NCBI GenBank assembly: GCA_023145965.1
Contig: JAGLDC010000005.1
Coordinates: 1 to 48,546, forward strand
Source of the DNA: a bacterium
Lineage (GTDB): Bacteria; UBP14; UBA6098
Direction of reading: 5' to 3'
Length of the DNA stretch: 48,546 nucleotides
Position 1 is the first letter of the stretch. Each line of letters starts with the position of its first letter. The translations under genes and the position numbers were made by a program. Below are positions 8,107-46,839 of this stretch, one piece after another. Under the pieces are notes generated by a model that made no database searches, had not been told where the DNA came from, and was given only the letters and a program-made list of their open reading frames with translations.

Positions 8107-9873
8107 ATGTCTGAAGAGAAAATCGGGCGCGTCGTAAAAGTCTCCGGCCCGCTCGTAGTCGCCGAAAATATGACCGGCGCAAAGATGTACGATGTCGTGC
8201 GCGTGTCCGAACAAGGGCTTATCGGTGAAATTATCGAGCTAAAAGGCGACCTTGCCTCTATTCAGGTTTATGAGGAAACCAGTGGCATGGGCCCCGGCGA
8301 GCCGGTTCACCTTACAGGCTCACCCCTTTCCGTCGAGCTTGGCCCCGGACTTCTGACATCGATTTACGACGGAATCCAACGCCCGCTCGACGATATCGTC
8401 GAGATGGCCGGCGATTTCATCCCTCGCGGAGTTGTCACAGACAAGCTTCCACGAAATATTAAATGGGATTTCAAACCGACCGTGAAGCCCGGCGATAAGC
8501 TCATCGCGGGCGATATTATCGGCACGGTGCAGGAAACATCGATCATCGAACATAAGATCATGCTTCCGCCCGGGATTTCCGGCGAGGTCGTTTCTATCGA
8601 ATCCGGTGAATTCAATATCGAAGAGGATATTTGCGTCGTTCGTGGCGACGACGGCATCGAGCAGAAAATAAAGATGTTCCACCGCTGGCCCGTTCGTCAT
8701 TCGAGGCCATTCAAAAAAAAGCATCTACCGAGGATGCCGCTGACGACCGGACAGCGCGTAATCGATACATTCTTCCCTGTCGGAAAGGGCGGGACGGCAT
8801 GCGTTCCCGGACCGTTCGGCAGCGGAAAAACCGTGATTCAGCACCAGTTGGCCAAGTGGGCCGATGCGGATATCATCGTCTATGTCGGCTGCGGCGAGCG
8901 TGGCAACGAAATGACCGATGTCCTCAATGAATTCCCAGAACTCAAAGACCCGAAAACGGGCGAACCGCTCATGAAACGCACCGTTCTCATCGCGAACACA
9001 TCGAACATGCCGGTCGCAGCGCGCGAGGCCTCGGTCTATACCGGGATTACCATCGCCGAATATTTCCGCGATATGGGCTATTCAGTTGCGGTAATGGCAG
9101 ACTCGACAAGCCGATGGGCTGAGGCAATGCGTGAGATTTCCGGGCGGCTCGAGGAGATGCCCGGCGACGAAGGCTATCCGGCATATTTGGCGCGGCGAAT
9201 CGCGGAGTTTTACGAGCGATCCGGCTGGGTCGATACACTCGGCTCCGATGAGCGCGTCGGAGCGCTTACTGTTGTCGGCGCGGTGTCGCCTCCGGGCGGC
9301 GATTTGGCCGACCCGGTTGTGCAGGCGACGCTCCGCGTTGTCCGCGTGTTCTGGAGCCTCGAAGCCGAATTGGCATATCAGCGCCATTACCCGGCGATTT
9401 CATGGCTGAATAGCTACTCGCTTTATGGCGATGTTTTCGACGAGTATTATCGCGAGAATGTTTCCCCGGAATTCCCCGATAACCGTATCAAGGCTATGGC
9501 GATACTCCAAACTGAAGCCGACCTTCAGGAAATAGTTAAACTCGTGGGCGCGGAGGCCCTCGACCCACCTGACCGCCTCACGCTCGACTCCGCACAGTCC
9601 ATACGCGAGGATTTCTTGCAACAACACGCCTTCCACAAAGTGGACACCTTCTGTTCCATCGAAAAACAGAACCTTATGCTAACGGCGATTCTTCTTTTTG
9701 AGACCGAGGCTCGCAAAGCGCTGGATGCCGGCGCGGATTTCAAGGCTATCGACGAGCATCATATCCGCGAGGAGATTGCGCGGATGAAGCGAATTCCGGA
9801 GTCGGAGGCGATTGCGCGCATCGAATCGATAATCGAGCGCATCCCGAAAGAGCTTGGCGAATTGGCGAAATAA
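8107..9873 (+). CDS. atpA: V-type ATP synthase catalytic subunit A
   Basis: 588 residues with an acaaggagc ribosome-binding site. It has the N-terminal barrel ([16 protein letters not shown]), the A-specific insertion (about 115-190), Walker A GPFGSGKT at 235-242, [13 protein letters not shown], and the catalytic region [25 protein letters not shown] split over the nucleotide pocket. Length is standard for V/A-ATPase A subunits. It is the nucleotide-hydrolysing or -forming subunit of the A3B3 head. Its GC content is visibly higher than that of atpE and atpC. Confidence 0.97.
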
Positions 9874-9889
9874 AGAAAGGGATAAACCC

Positions 9890-11338
9890 ATGGGCGACAT
9901 GATCTTATTGGATGGAGTGAAATATTGCAGATACGAGCCGAAAACCGAGGCCGAGTTCGAGCATCTTGTGGTGGAGAACGCCGCGCAGATTTTCGGTGAG
10001 GACGCGATATATTTGGATATAAAGAAGCTCATCAAGACCGAGTGGGGCAAGGGAACGATACCGGACGGCTATCTTTTCTACCCGGAGGAGAAGCGTTTCG
10101 TTTTAGTCGAGGTGGAATTATCGAGCCACGACGTCCACTCGCATGTGAGCAGGCAGCTTGCGACATTTATTGGCTCATTTGAAAATCACAGGTCGCGGAA
10201 TAAGCTCGCAAAGCTCGTGCAAAGGCATATCGAAGAAAATCCGCAACTGCGCGAACGGCTCGGCAAAGCGGCGAAGGGCAAAGGGCTTTTCGATTTCCTT
10301 TATAACGAGGTGTTCGAGGCGCTTGCCGAGGGCGGCGGTTTCGAGACAATTGTCGTAATAGAGCGCGAAACGCCGCAAATACTCGGCGCGATGAAATTGC
10401 TGATGCCGCATCCGAAGGTTCTCGAGGTTGCCATTTACGCCCGCGAGGGCGCGGAGGAGGAATTTGCGCTAAGATTCGAACCGCAGTATGACTTCGTGAC
10501 TCAACCTATAATGAAAACGGTAAAACCAGCTCAAAAAAAACCAGACAAAGAAGAAACTCCGGTTCCGGTTAGTATTAAGGAGAGTATCGTTAAGATTAAA
10601 GGAGACTTGGAATTTCCAATAGAGATTTCCATGACCTATAAGCGCGTTGCCTATAAAGCCTTGCTATATAGCCACGATTTATTCAGATATAATGACTTAG
10701 CCTTTTCGAGCTTGACGGGATTATCCAAGTATATATCCGACGGCAAAAAAGCGGTTGCTTGGACTGCCTGGGATTGCAACTATAAAAATGCCGTTGTTAA
10801 AATCTCGGAAATAAAGGACGAAATCTGGGAACAAGGCTTCTATAAATCTATACAGGCTAACGTTAGAAGTTTAACGCGGCGAATAATAGAGGACCTAAAA
10901 GAATTAGAGAGGCAGAATCTTCTAAGATATGATACTGGAAGTAATTACAATTATTTTTATGCTCCTTATGGCGACGATGAGTTCACAGTTTTCCGTCTCG
11001 AATTAGTTTCGGATATGCCTAAAAATTACGAGGAAGAAGAATATGAAAATAACTCTGTGAGCGAATTTGACTGTGGCCCATGGAGCGATGATTTGATTGC
11101 CGTAAATCAACAAACTCATATCTCTATGGATGAGTGGGGATTCTTAATTAATCGTTATATAAAAGAATTCTACCTCCCCATAAAAGATAGACTTATAAGT
11201 TCAGGACTTTTCAGCTTACTTGAGGAGGATGATAATTCTATAGAATGGTATATAACACCCGATAACGATTTTTTCGATGTGGAGACATTTATACAAATCA
11301 TTGCAGACTTACTTAAAGAGATAAAAGATAAACAGTAA
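9890..11338 (+). CDS. PD-(D/E)xK nuclease-like protein with unknown C-terminal half
   Basis: 482 residues from ATG 9890, supported by aaagaaaggga upstream; longer starts would run into atpA. The N-terminal domain (1-200) has EFEHLVVENAAQIFG (Glu29), IPDGYLF (Asp59) and VLVEVELSSHD (Glu74-x-Glu76), a nuclease-like core of the NucS/DUF91-like kind, and SHVSRQLATFIGSF. A Lys/Pro-rich linker (about 205-222) joins a second half with no recognised domain, rich in aromatic and acidic residues. The DNA for the first half is GC-rich like atpA, the second half AT-rich, so the gene looks chimeric. It separates atpA from atpB. Possibly a restriction or repair nuclease. Confidence 0.65.
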   Translation: MGDMILLDGVKYCRYEPKTEAEFEHLVVENAAQIFGEDAIYLDIKKLIKTEWGKGTIPDGYLFYPEEKRFVLVEVELSSHDVHSHVSRQLATFIGSFENHRSRNKLAKLVQRHIEENPQLRERLGKAAKGKGLFDFLYNEVFEALAEGGGFETIVVIERETPQILGAMKLLMPHPKVLEVAIYAREGAEEEFALRFEPQYDFVTQPIMKTVKPAQKKPDKEETPVPVSIKESIVKIKGDLEFPIEISMTYKRVAYKALLYSHDLFRYNDLAFSSLTGLSKYISDGKKAVAWTAWDCNYKNAVVKISEIKDEIWEQGFYKSIQANVRSLTRRIIEDLKELERQNLLRYDTGSNYNYFYAPYGDDEFTVFRLELVSDMPKNYEEEEYENNSVSEFDCGPWSDDLIAVNQQTHISMDEWGFLINRYIKEFYLPIKDRLISSGLFSLLEEDDNSIEWYITPDNDFFDVETFIQIIADLLKEIKDKQ

Positions 11339-11342
11339 TCCT

Positions 11343-11453
11343 ATGAGAAACTCGGGGAATTATCTTAAAGATGACGACGTAGGTCTTGAAAACGTTCAGT
11401 TATGTCTTGGAAATGAGGTTATATCTTTTGAAAACGTCGATGTAGGTCTTTAA
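11343..11453 (+). CDS. 36-residue heptad-repeat ORF
   Basis: An ATG just after the nuclease gene opens 36 codons of degenerate heptads: KDDDVGL, ENVQLCL, GNEVISF, ENVDVGL. The unit is again 7 codons, as at 1339-1566. No clear ribosome-binding site is seen. It may be open only because of the repeat. Confidence 0.25.
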   Translation: MRNSGNYLKDDDVGLENVQLCLGNEVISFENVDVGL

Positions 11454-11475
11454 AACGCAAAAGGAGTCTTGGGAA
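11359..11475 (+). repeat. 21-bp degenerate tandem repeats, about 5 units (locus 2)
   Basis: Units begin TTAAAGATGACGACG, TTGAAAACGTTCAG, TTGGAAATGAGGTT, TTGAAAACGTCGATG and TTTAAAACGCAAAAG, each about 21 bp with a GTC-like end. The unit start TTNAAAAYG is shared with locus 1 (1359-1530). The array follows a nuclease-like gene and precedes a truncated atpB start. Confidence 0.7.
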
Positions 11476-11542
11476 AGCCTGAGCGACAACGACTTAAGCA
11501 AAAACATATTTTTTTGAACAAAATTATCGCAAGTTGCAAAAC

Positions 11543-11715
11543 TGAATTTATAAAATAATAATCATACGGAGGAAACAATGTTAAAAGAATATAGAACAAT
11601 TACGGAAGTCGCGGGGCCGCTGCTCGTGGTCGAAATAAATAGAAACACCGCCCCGAAATCGGGACGGCGTCGGGCTAACGATACTATCGTTAGGGCTGTT
11701 ACAGTAACATTATAA
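11543..11715 (+). pseudogene. truncated duplicate of the atpB start
   Basis: Positions 11543-11633 align without gaps with 12255-12345 (leader, cggaggaaa ribosome-binding site, ATG and about the first 18 codons) at roughly 86% identity. The frame from ATG 11578 then leaves the atpB sequence and stops at 11713-11715 after 45 residues. The tail carries the palindromes ctaacgatactatcgttag and gctgttacagtaac. More diverged than the atpK duplicate, hence probably older. Confidence 0.88.
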
Positions 11716-11729
11716 ATCAAATCGGCGAA

Positions 11730-12254
11730 ATGTCAAGATCTTCGATAAATAGAAAGCAAATTCGTCTCAAAGATTACGATTATTCGTCACCGGGAGCTTA
11801 TTTTGTGACCATTTGTTCTGAGAATAGAAAACCCGTTTTCATTAAGTTTCCTGTTTTAAAGCAAATCGCTGATAAAAACTGGAAGAAAATTCCAGAACGT
11901 TATGAAATGGCGGAGATAGACGAATATATAATAATGCCAGATCATATTCACGGAATAATATTTATCCTACCAGCCGTAGGGGCGGGTCTTGCGCCCGCCC
12001 ATGGAAACGACAATGTTCCGTGTTCGGAAAAACGGGCCGGCGCAAGACCGGCCCCTACGATCGGTAACATTGTTGGATCATTTAAATCATTATGTTTAAA
12101 AGATTGGTTGGAATATATCGAGAATAATAATATGGAAATAAGGGCAAAATTCTGGCAACGTGGATTTTATGACCATGTCATCCGAAACGAAAAAGACCTT
12201 TCTAAGGTTCGCGGATACATACAGAACAACCCAGAAATGGTTGCCGAATTTTGA
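11730..12254 (+). CDS. REP-associated tyrosine transposase (RAYT, IS200-like Y1 family)
   Basis: 174 residues with the RAYT pattern: KDYDYSSPGAYFVTICSENR at the start, EYIIMPDHIHGIIFI containing the HUH motif (His-Ile-His), WQRGFYDHVIRNE and the catalytic-Tyr region VRGYIQNNPEM. These enzymes are thought to move REP palindromes as single strands, recognising a GTAG-type tetranucleotide beside a hairpin. Between the HUH and GFYDH regions, about 28 residues (VGAGLAPAHG...RAGARPAPT) are encoded by a REP pair inserted in frame. The gene sits between the truncated and intact atpB starts. Whether the enzyme is active is not known. Confidence 0.92.
   Translation: MSRSSINRKQIRLKDYDYSSPGAYFVTICSENRKPVFIKFPVLKQIADKNWKKIPERYEMAEIDEYIIMPDHIHGIIFILPAVGAGLAPAHGNDNVPCSEKRAGARPAPTIGNIVGSFKSLCLKDWLEYIENNNMEIRAKFWQRGFYDHVIRNEKDLSKVRGYIQNNPEMVAEF
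11976..12058 (+). repeat. REPIN (two inverted GTAG-type REPs) inside the RAYT coding sequence
   Basis: GTAG at 11976 is followed by hairpin GGGCGGG-tcttgcg-CCCGCCC. A second, inverted hairpin GGGCCGG-cgcaaga-CCGGCCC ends in CTAC at 12058. The 83-bp unit keeps the transposase frame open. Related GTAG hairpins are dense at 45.2-46.8 kb. Confidence 0.88.
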
Positions 12255-12289
12255 TGAATTTATAAAACGAAAATCAACCGGAGGAAAGC

Positions 12290-13657
12290 ATGCTAAAAGA
12301 ATACAGAACAATTACCGAGGTCGCGGGGCCGCTGCTGGTTGTCGAGGGGATCGAGGGCGCGACATTCGAGGAGCTGGTCGAGATCACGCTTCCCGACGGC
12401 GAAAAGCGGCGCGGTAAGGTGCTCGAGGTCAACCGCGACAAGGCGATAATCCAACTTTTCGAGGGCACCACAGGCGTCGATGTCTATGGCTCGCGCGTGA
12501 GATTTCTTGGGCGCGGGATCGAGCTGGGCGTTTCCGAAGACATGCTCGGACGCATTTTCGATGGCCTCGGGCGGCCTATCGACGACGGCCCGGAGATTTT
12601 ACCCGAAAAGCGCCTCGACATCAATGGCGCGCCGATAAACCCATACGCGCGCGAGTTCCCCGATGAGTTTATCCAGACGGGCGTGTCGGCCATCGATGGC
12701 TTGAATACTCTGGTTCGCGGGCAGAAATTGCCGATATTCTCGGCCTCGGGATTACCACACAATATGCTCGCGGCTCAGATCGCGCGGCAGGCAAAGGTGC
12801 TCGGCACTGAGGAGAAATTCGGTGTGGTGTTCGGCGCGATGGGAATCACCTTCGAGGAGGCGGAATTTTTCCGTCGGGAGTTCGAGCGCACTGGCGCCTT
12901 GGAGCGCGCGGTGCTGTATTTAAATCTGGCGAACGACCCGGCAATCGAGCGAATCTCGACGCCGCGAATCGCGTTGACGACTGCGGAATACCTTGCGTTC
13001 GAGAAGGGGATGCACATCCTCGTGATCATCACAGATATGACGAATTATTGTGAGGCTCTCAGGGAGGTTTCAGCATCGCGCAAGGAGATTCCCGGCCGGC
13101 GTGGCTTCCCCGGCTATCTATACACCGACCTTGCCACACTTTATGAACGCGCCGGCAGAATCAAGGGCCGCGACGGCTCGATCACGCTGATCCCCGTTCT
13201 CACGATGCCCGAAGACGACAAGACACACCCAATTCCCGACCTTACGGGCTATATCACGGAGGGCCAAATATACCTATCGCGCTCGCTCCTTAAAAAGGGC
13301 ATTACACCGCCAATAGATGCACTCCCAAGCCTCTCACGTCTTCGCCAGAAAGGCGTCGGCCCCGGCAAAACCCGTGAAGACCACGATGATCTTTTCAATC
13401 AATTGTATGCGGCTTATGCTCGAGGCAAACAGTCGCAGGAACTTGCTGTGATTCTTGGCGAGGCAGCTCTTTCTGACCTCGATAAAATATATCTCGAATT
13501 CGCCTCGAATTTCGAGGAGCGATATATCGGGCAAGGATACAATAGCAACCGCACAATAGAGGAAACTCTCGATCTTTCATGGGAGCTTTTATCTAAATTC
13601 CCACGCAGAGAACTGAAGAAAATCGATGAAAAATTAATAGAAAAATACTTGAAATAG
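12290..13657 (+). CDS. atpB: V-type ATP synthase subunit B
   Basis: 455 residues with an accggaggaaag ribosome-binding site. Shows the barrel ([20 protein letters not shown]), the non-catalytic nucleotide-site region [15 protein letters not shown] in place of a Walker A, and [27 protein letters not shown], then [20 protein letters not shown] at the end. It alternates with A in the head. No subunit D gene follows, although D usually does; the operon stops here at a GC-rich hairpin. GC-rich like atpA. Confidence 0.97.
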
Positions 13658-45172: not shown

Positions 45173-45373
45173 GTAGGGGAGCACCCCTGTGTGCTCCCGC
45201 TCGTCACGCCAACGCCATTCGGTTTTACCGCGCCGGGAGGGCACGGGGACCCGCCCGTCGGAATTTCGGTAGGACGGACATTCTTGTCTGTCCCCGAACA
45301 GGCAGGAATGCCTGTTCTACCGACAATCATTGTTTTCAAATCCGTCGCGGGCGGGTTTCAAACCTGCCCCTAC
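45173..45373. repeat. cluster of GTAG-type REP palindromes
   Basis: Hairpins next to GTAG (or CTAC on the other strand): GTAG at 45173 with GGGAGCAC/GCTCCC, 45269-45320 with a facing pair (GTAGGACGGACA ... TGCCTGTTCTAC, a REPIN), and one ending CTAC at 45373. Positions 45234-45343 recur identically at 45952-46061. Confidence 0.85.
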
Positions 45374-46656: not shown

Positions 46657-46765
46657 GTAGGGGCGCGGTCTCCGCGCCCGATTTGTAGGGGCGGTTCGAG
46701 AACCGCCCGTTTCCATATCACGATTATCGTAATTTGACGACGGGCAGGTCTAAGACCTGCCCCTA
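46657..46765. repeat. three GTAG-type REP palindromes
   Basis: GTAG at 46657 with GGGCGCGG/CCGCGCCC, GTAG at 46685 with GGGCGGTT/AACCGCCC, and gggcaggt/acctgccc ending CTAC at 46765. Same type as at 45.2 kb and inside the RAYT gene. Confidence 0.88.
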
Positions 46766-46839
46766 CGGGGAAATATCGCGTTCATCGTTTTCAAATCGTC
46801 CGTTACCTCCCCGCGAAAAGCGCGGAGAAGGGAATTTTG

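Follow-up and report, generated by a model that had tools for sequence, protein, structure and literature searches.

A gene for a REP-associated tyrosine transposase (RAYT, or TnpAREP) carries, inside its own coding sequence and without a break in the frame, two facing REP hairpins of the kind that its product would be expected to handle. We consider it probable that this reflects a permissive surface loop of the protein, which admits and retains the enzyme's own REPs. The gene (11730..12254, forward strand, 174 amino acids) is the only full RAYT copy in its source genome and lies in a 48,546-nucleotide stretch of bacterial DNA, called the window here. Of 189 relatives, spread over many phyla, 135 have GTAG hairpins in the same loop, and a unique insertion event is rejected because loop REPs recur among these relatives.

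The identity of the enzyme is supported by several lines of evidence. The open reading frame matches the IS200-like HUH transposase family Y1_Tnp in Pfam (PF01797, 6e-07) and the REP-associated tyrosine transposase model NF047646 in NCBIfam (8.6e-19), the latter with 67.9 bits, which is below the curated cut-off of 80. By sequence, a profile of 24 relatives recovered one solved structure, E. coli TnpAREP 4er8 (E 6.9e-07), and Foldseek with the AlphaFold model matched Y1 transposases including 4er8 (6.0e-07) and IS608 2vih. The HUH motif, seen in sequence and alignment, is His72-Ile73-His74 (11943..11951, forward strand). Residues 142-152, WQRGFYDHVIR (12153..12185, forward), are the counterpart of the GTAG-recognition region of the E. 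coli enzyme in the alignment to 4er8, with W142, Q143, D148, H149 and R152 aligned to W94, Q95, E100, H101 and R104 (W94-R104 form that region; residue roles from PMC6006769). Tyr163, which opens the motif YIQNNP (residues 163-168; 12216..12233, forward), is the predicted catalytic tyrosine, as the counterpart of Tyr115 of 4er8 in a YIxNNP-type motif. The Y1 HUH core of the family is therefore present (H72, H74, a single Y163, PF01797 and the fold). As with other RAYTs, for which this has been shown (PMC8266576), the window RAYT would be expected to recognize GTAG hairpins in single-stranded DNA and to cleave and rejoin REPs.

The first hairpin (11976..12000, forward strand; GTAGGGGCGGGTCTTGCGCCCGCCC) consists of GTAG, a 7-bp stem and a 7-nt loop, and is read in frame as VGAGLAPA. 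The second (12034..12058, reverse strand; GTAGGGGCCGGTCTTGCGCCGGCCC) faces it and is read in frame as RAGARPAPT. Together they form a REPIN-type pair of 83 nt (11976..12058), i.e. two REPs of the same family, inverted and a short distance apart. The stems differ by a compensatory pair change (GGGCGGG/CCCGCCC against GGGCCGG/CCGGCCC), and the 7-nt loop TCTTGCG is common to both. No such hairpin match is expected by chance (0.00 in 100 shuffles), and the predicted fold of the pair is far more stable than that of shuffled sequence, with z = -6.7 for single-stranded DNA and, at -62.1 kcal/mol, z = -7.2 for RNA. The initial annotation, which had described two facing GTAG hairpins here and an unbroken frame, was exact in its coordinates, and residues 83-110 (VGAGLAPAHGNDNVPCSEKRAGARPAPT), encoded by the pair, are indeed open. 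It had also placed the pair between the HUH motif and GFYDH. The position holds, with the qualification that GFYDH belongs to the recognition-region counterpart and does not hold the catalytic tyrosine (Y163 in YIQNNP); the pair thus lies between the HUH histidines (H72, H74) on one side and both the GTAG-recognition and the catalytic tyrosine regions on the other.

The AlphaFold model of the protein (mean pLDDT 81.8) contains a strand at residues 72-79 and a helix at 111-132, joined by an unstructured loop at about residues 80-110. Here pLDDT is about 53-64, against values above 90 for most of the core; the model was built on 24 sequences, and the low loop confidence is as expected for disorder. 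From this layout, the REP-coded segment is the loop that connects the HUH strand to the helix after it. A tolerated surface loop had been one of the readings offered by the initial annotation, and it has become the best supported: the model is unstructured and of low confidence exactly over the REP-coded residues, the enzyme's motifs are retained in relatives without the insert, and REPs of the same family stand in frame in other proteins of the genome.

The recurrence of loop REPs was followed in surveys of related genes, and the count of 135 of 189 combines both rounds after removal of four mis-parsed genes. In the first surveys, one or more GT[AG]G hairpins were found in the loop between the HUH motif and the recognition-region W in 86 of 106 parsed relatives, in a sample that was queried with the insert-bearing window protein and may favour insert-bearing genes. 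These hairpins are concentrated in the loop (152, compared to 9 before and 5 after it), and codon-shuffled reading frames give 8.3 for the whole set. The second survey, of 386 genomes, used an insert-free query and so leans the opposite way; loop hairpins were present in 45 of 75 new genes. Among relatives, the hairpins vary in stem, peptide and reading frame. Forward GTAG is read in frame 0 in 54 cases and in frame 1 in 17 (first surveys), and never in frame 2, which would place TAG in frame. At stem positions 5-7 all four Watson-Crick pair types occur with pairing retained, as measured with a detector that demanded near-complete pairing.

Arrangements differ as well. The first 118 genes comprise 32 with facing pairs, 24 with double-foot palindromes, 30 with single hairpins, 7 with others and 25 without; several of these 25 encode REP-like peptides with no intact hairpin, which may be decayed copies. 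On a core-only tree, which is weakly supported, the trait needs 28 changes compared to 46.8 in shuffles; on such a tree, intragenic REPs are clustered yet repeatedly gained or lost. The distance from GTAG to CTAC is not a multiple of three in 30 of the 32 facing-pair genes (it is 2 modulo 3 in 22 and 0 in two). Exact insertion from GTAG to CTAC alone would therefore usually shift the frame, and extra bases or selection must be involved. One added base at an end would fit most facing pairs, but shared ancestry and peptide preferences could also give the bias. The same spans do not support a clean in-frame cassette with scarless excision. Across the first 118 genes, GTAG is preceded by C or T in 63 of 69 cases, and CTAC is followed by G or A in 68 of 80. 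In-frame REPs also occur outside the main loop, before the HUH motif or after WQ (loci L031, at about residues 47-67, L075, L103 and L130). At some RAYT loci, partial copies of the RAYT gene end at REPs (L015, upstream of the gene, and L024), e.g. a remnant MPNHIHEIFF followed by GTAG, which suggests duplications across REPs.

Where relatives carry REPs both inside and beside the gene (46 genes, flanks within 500 nt), the two match closely, with a median edit distance of 1 and identity in 22 of 46. Flanking REPs compared with the intragenic REPs of other loci have a median edit distance of 8, and the observed mean was reached in none of 2000 permutations. Judged by sequence, the intragenic REP is thus the enzyme's own (cognate) REP, since in relatives it matches the REPs flanking the same gene. 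Self-targeting, another suggestion of the initial annotation, would be compatible with this match. Core protein distance also correlates with intragenic REP distance (rho 0.29; equalled in 0 of 500 permutations). For 128 genes, the correlation with the core is 0.25 for the stem arm and 0.12 for the loop, both beyond all 500 permutations; the idea that the hairpin loop, rather than the stem, tracks the enzyme is thus not supported.

The REP family is dispersed in the 2.5-Mb source genome, with 15 copies, two of them intragenic in the RAYT, compared to 0 for a reversed control pattern (genome-wide counts here are pattern searches). GTAG-headed REPs repeated in the host genome are thus found as in other members of the RAYT / TnpAREP family, and the claim that the pair is of the enzyme's own kind is supported. 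An additional stem class, GGGAGGG/CCCTCCC, occurs in the source genome, and several REPs elsewhere in it have CC ahead of GTAG. Another REPIN pair there spans 77 nt (contig C64, 16450-16526), and the sister genome G002 has several of 77 nt; descent of the window pair as a recent copy of this 77-nt REPIN of the genus is not supported, as the spacer peptides differ. Related copies are found in same-genus and same-family genomes (18 in G002, 14 in G004), and a search of these two whole genomes for a RAYT gave no match at the thresholds used, despite the presence of the REP family. Within the window, there are more GTAGGGGC-type sites at 45363-45373 and 46657-46766, including a REP-like hairpin at 46742-46766 on the reverse strand.

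In the source genome and in the sister G002, some proteins that bear C-terminal sorting domains also contain same-family REPs in frame. REPs or REPINs lie within these domains, repeatedly at the same sites (L005, L007, L008 and L010; in G002, L146, L147 and L148), and encode peptides such as GEGLAPSR and VGAGFTPALNDVADNNERDGARPSPT; the matches to PF18962 are below the curated cut-off. In-frame tolerance of REPs is general in the source genome and its sister, but across bacteria the RAYT loop is a preferred site.

The RAYT gene is flanked by the genes for V-type ATPase subunits A (8107-9873, upstream) and B (12290-13657, downstream). A 91-nt stretch (12255-12345), which takes in the start of the B gene with its first codons and ribosome-binding region, is duplicated upstream at 11543-11633 with 86% identity, and in the sister genome G003 the B gene has its first 19 codons duplicated with identical protein sequence. 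In sister genomes the A/B junction holds other genes, by eye HicAB-, NYN-, AbiEii- and HEPN-like (L152, L154-L157), and the junction (9874-12289 in the window) looks like an insertion hotspot in this bacterial family. A 494-residue open reading frame without a Pfam match (9854-11338) has homologs of 52% and 60% identity in G002 and G004, where they too occupy the ATPase junction, and three imperfect, GACGTAGGTCTTGAAAACG-like direct repeats of 30 nt lie upstream of the RAYT at 11365-11457. The RAYT of the same-genus genome G001 has a different location, beside a gene that, from a reading of the sequence, is DnaK-like, and on the core tree, which is weakly supported, proteins of other families are the closer relatives of the window RAYT. 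For these two reasons the window RAYT was likely, if not provably, acquired by transfer.

How, then, did the REPs come to be in the gene, and why do they persist? Under the explanation that we prefer, a permissive loop that follows the HUH strand and precedes the next helix would have received cognate REPs in frame, presumably inserted by the RAYT itself. Copies landing there would survive since the protein would tolerate almost any peptide if the frame stays open, and would be either replenished or preserved in the long run; the protein would for the most part tolerate them without needing them. Intact hairpins are more frequent at this one loop than pure tolerance by itself would explain, as decay would then be expected. 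Renewal by the enzyme or selection may keep them intact. It is conceivable, if rather unlikely, that the intragenic pair is selected as a built-in, co-evolving cognate substrate, so that one gene by itself would form a unit able to move horizontally and to seed REPs. Loss of the REPs would then damage the gene, and transfer of the gene alone would seed a new REP population. Such a role agrees with the 47 of 93 first-round insert-bearing genes that have no flanking REP within 500 nt, the window gene among them, and with genome G024, whose six RAYTs each carry their own type of intragenic REP; four of the six have flanking REPs, and in two of these four the intragenic REP is identical to the flank. 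The co-variation of RAYT core and REP across phyla also agrees with it, but simple inheritance of the insert and functional recognition of the cognate REP would account for it just as well. Against such a role, roughly one gene in four has no intact loop hairpin, and 15 first-round genes have flanking REPs only.

The strong predicted RNA fold of the pair raises a regulatory role, in which the hairpins in the mRNA, or RAYT bound to them, limit translation or trigger cleavage of the enzyme's own transcript. Another transposase, that of ISPpu9, is regulated by secondary structure of the 5' UTR (PMC8450116). The window element lies mid-gene and not at the start, many relatives have one hairpin or none, and the known binding is to single-stranded DNA rather than RNA (PMC8266576), so that we regard autoregulation as improbable. 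That the segment is ordinary protein sequence, with codons forming inverted repeats by chance, has nothing in its favour beyond the open frame and is rejected as virtually inconceivable: near-identical hairpins occur elsewhere in the source genome, and conservation lies in the hairpins, not in the peptide. The initial annotation had reasoned that a conserved protein segment with unconserved hairpins would reveal ordinary coding sequence; the opposite was found, since the hairpins are maintained, with covariation, among relatives whose peptides differ.

In-frame REPs have already been described for TnpAREP subclass 2.4, with a predicted peripheral position (Quentin et al. 2018, PMC6006769), a subclass equated with RAYT group 4 (PMC6006769). 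The window RAYT appears nearest to this group. Both share the HUH/Y1 transposase, the WQ (W142-Q143) and YIxNNP motifs, and an insertion, variable in sequence, that separates strand beta3 from helix C and holds REPs in frame between the HUH and Y motifs; long REPs are inserted in the tnpAREP gene of the subclass (PMC6006769). The window gene differs in having no REP outside it within 500 nt, and in reading DHIH in place of the published NH[IFV]H. Since 13 genes with intragenic REPs, the window gene included, have D at the first position of this motif, the residue is not a sharp border of the subclass. Our broad and independent sample (189 genes, many phyla) confirms the habit of this subgroup to carry REPs inside its own gene, and adds that the intragenic REP is cognate, matches gene-adjacent REPs and co-varies with the enzyme core. 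The subgroup is also handy for studies of REP spread and of how RAYT residues recognize REPs, as enzyme and substrate can be read from one sequence. Compared to the REPtrons (E. coli TnpAREP 4er8, and the Stenotrophomonas and Pseudomonas RAYTs), the enzyme family, the GTAG-headed hairpins and the recognition-residue counterparts are alike, whereas their REPs flank the gene and those of the window are inside it; cleavage of single-stranded REPs by TnpAREP has been shown for the E. coli, Stenotrophomonas and Marinomonas enzymes (PMC8266576). Genes of other kinds have also been reported to contain REPs (PMC3733652). Those GTAG/CGTC REPs and the Rickettsia palindromic elements are likewise palindromic repeats that add roughly 20-30 in-frame residues, but their host genes are unrelated, whereas the host gene in the window encodes the very enzyme that is thought to act on the repeat.
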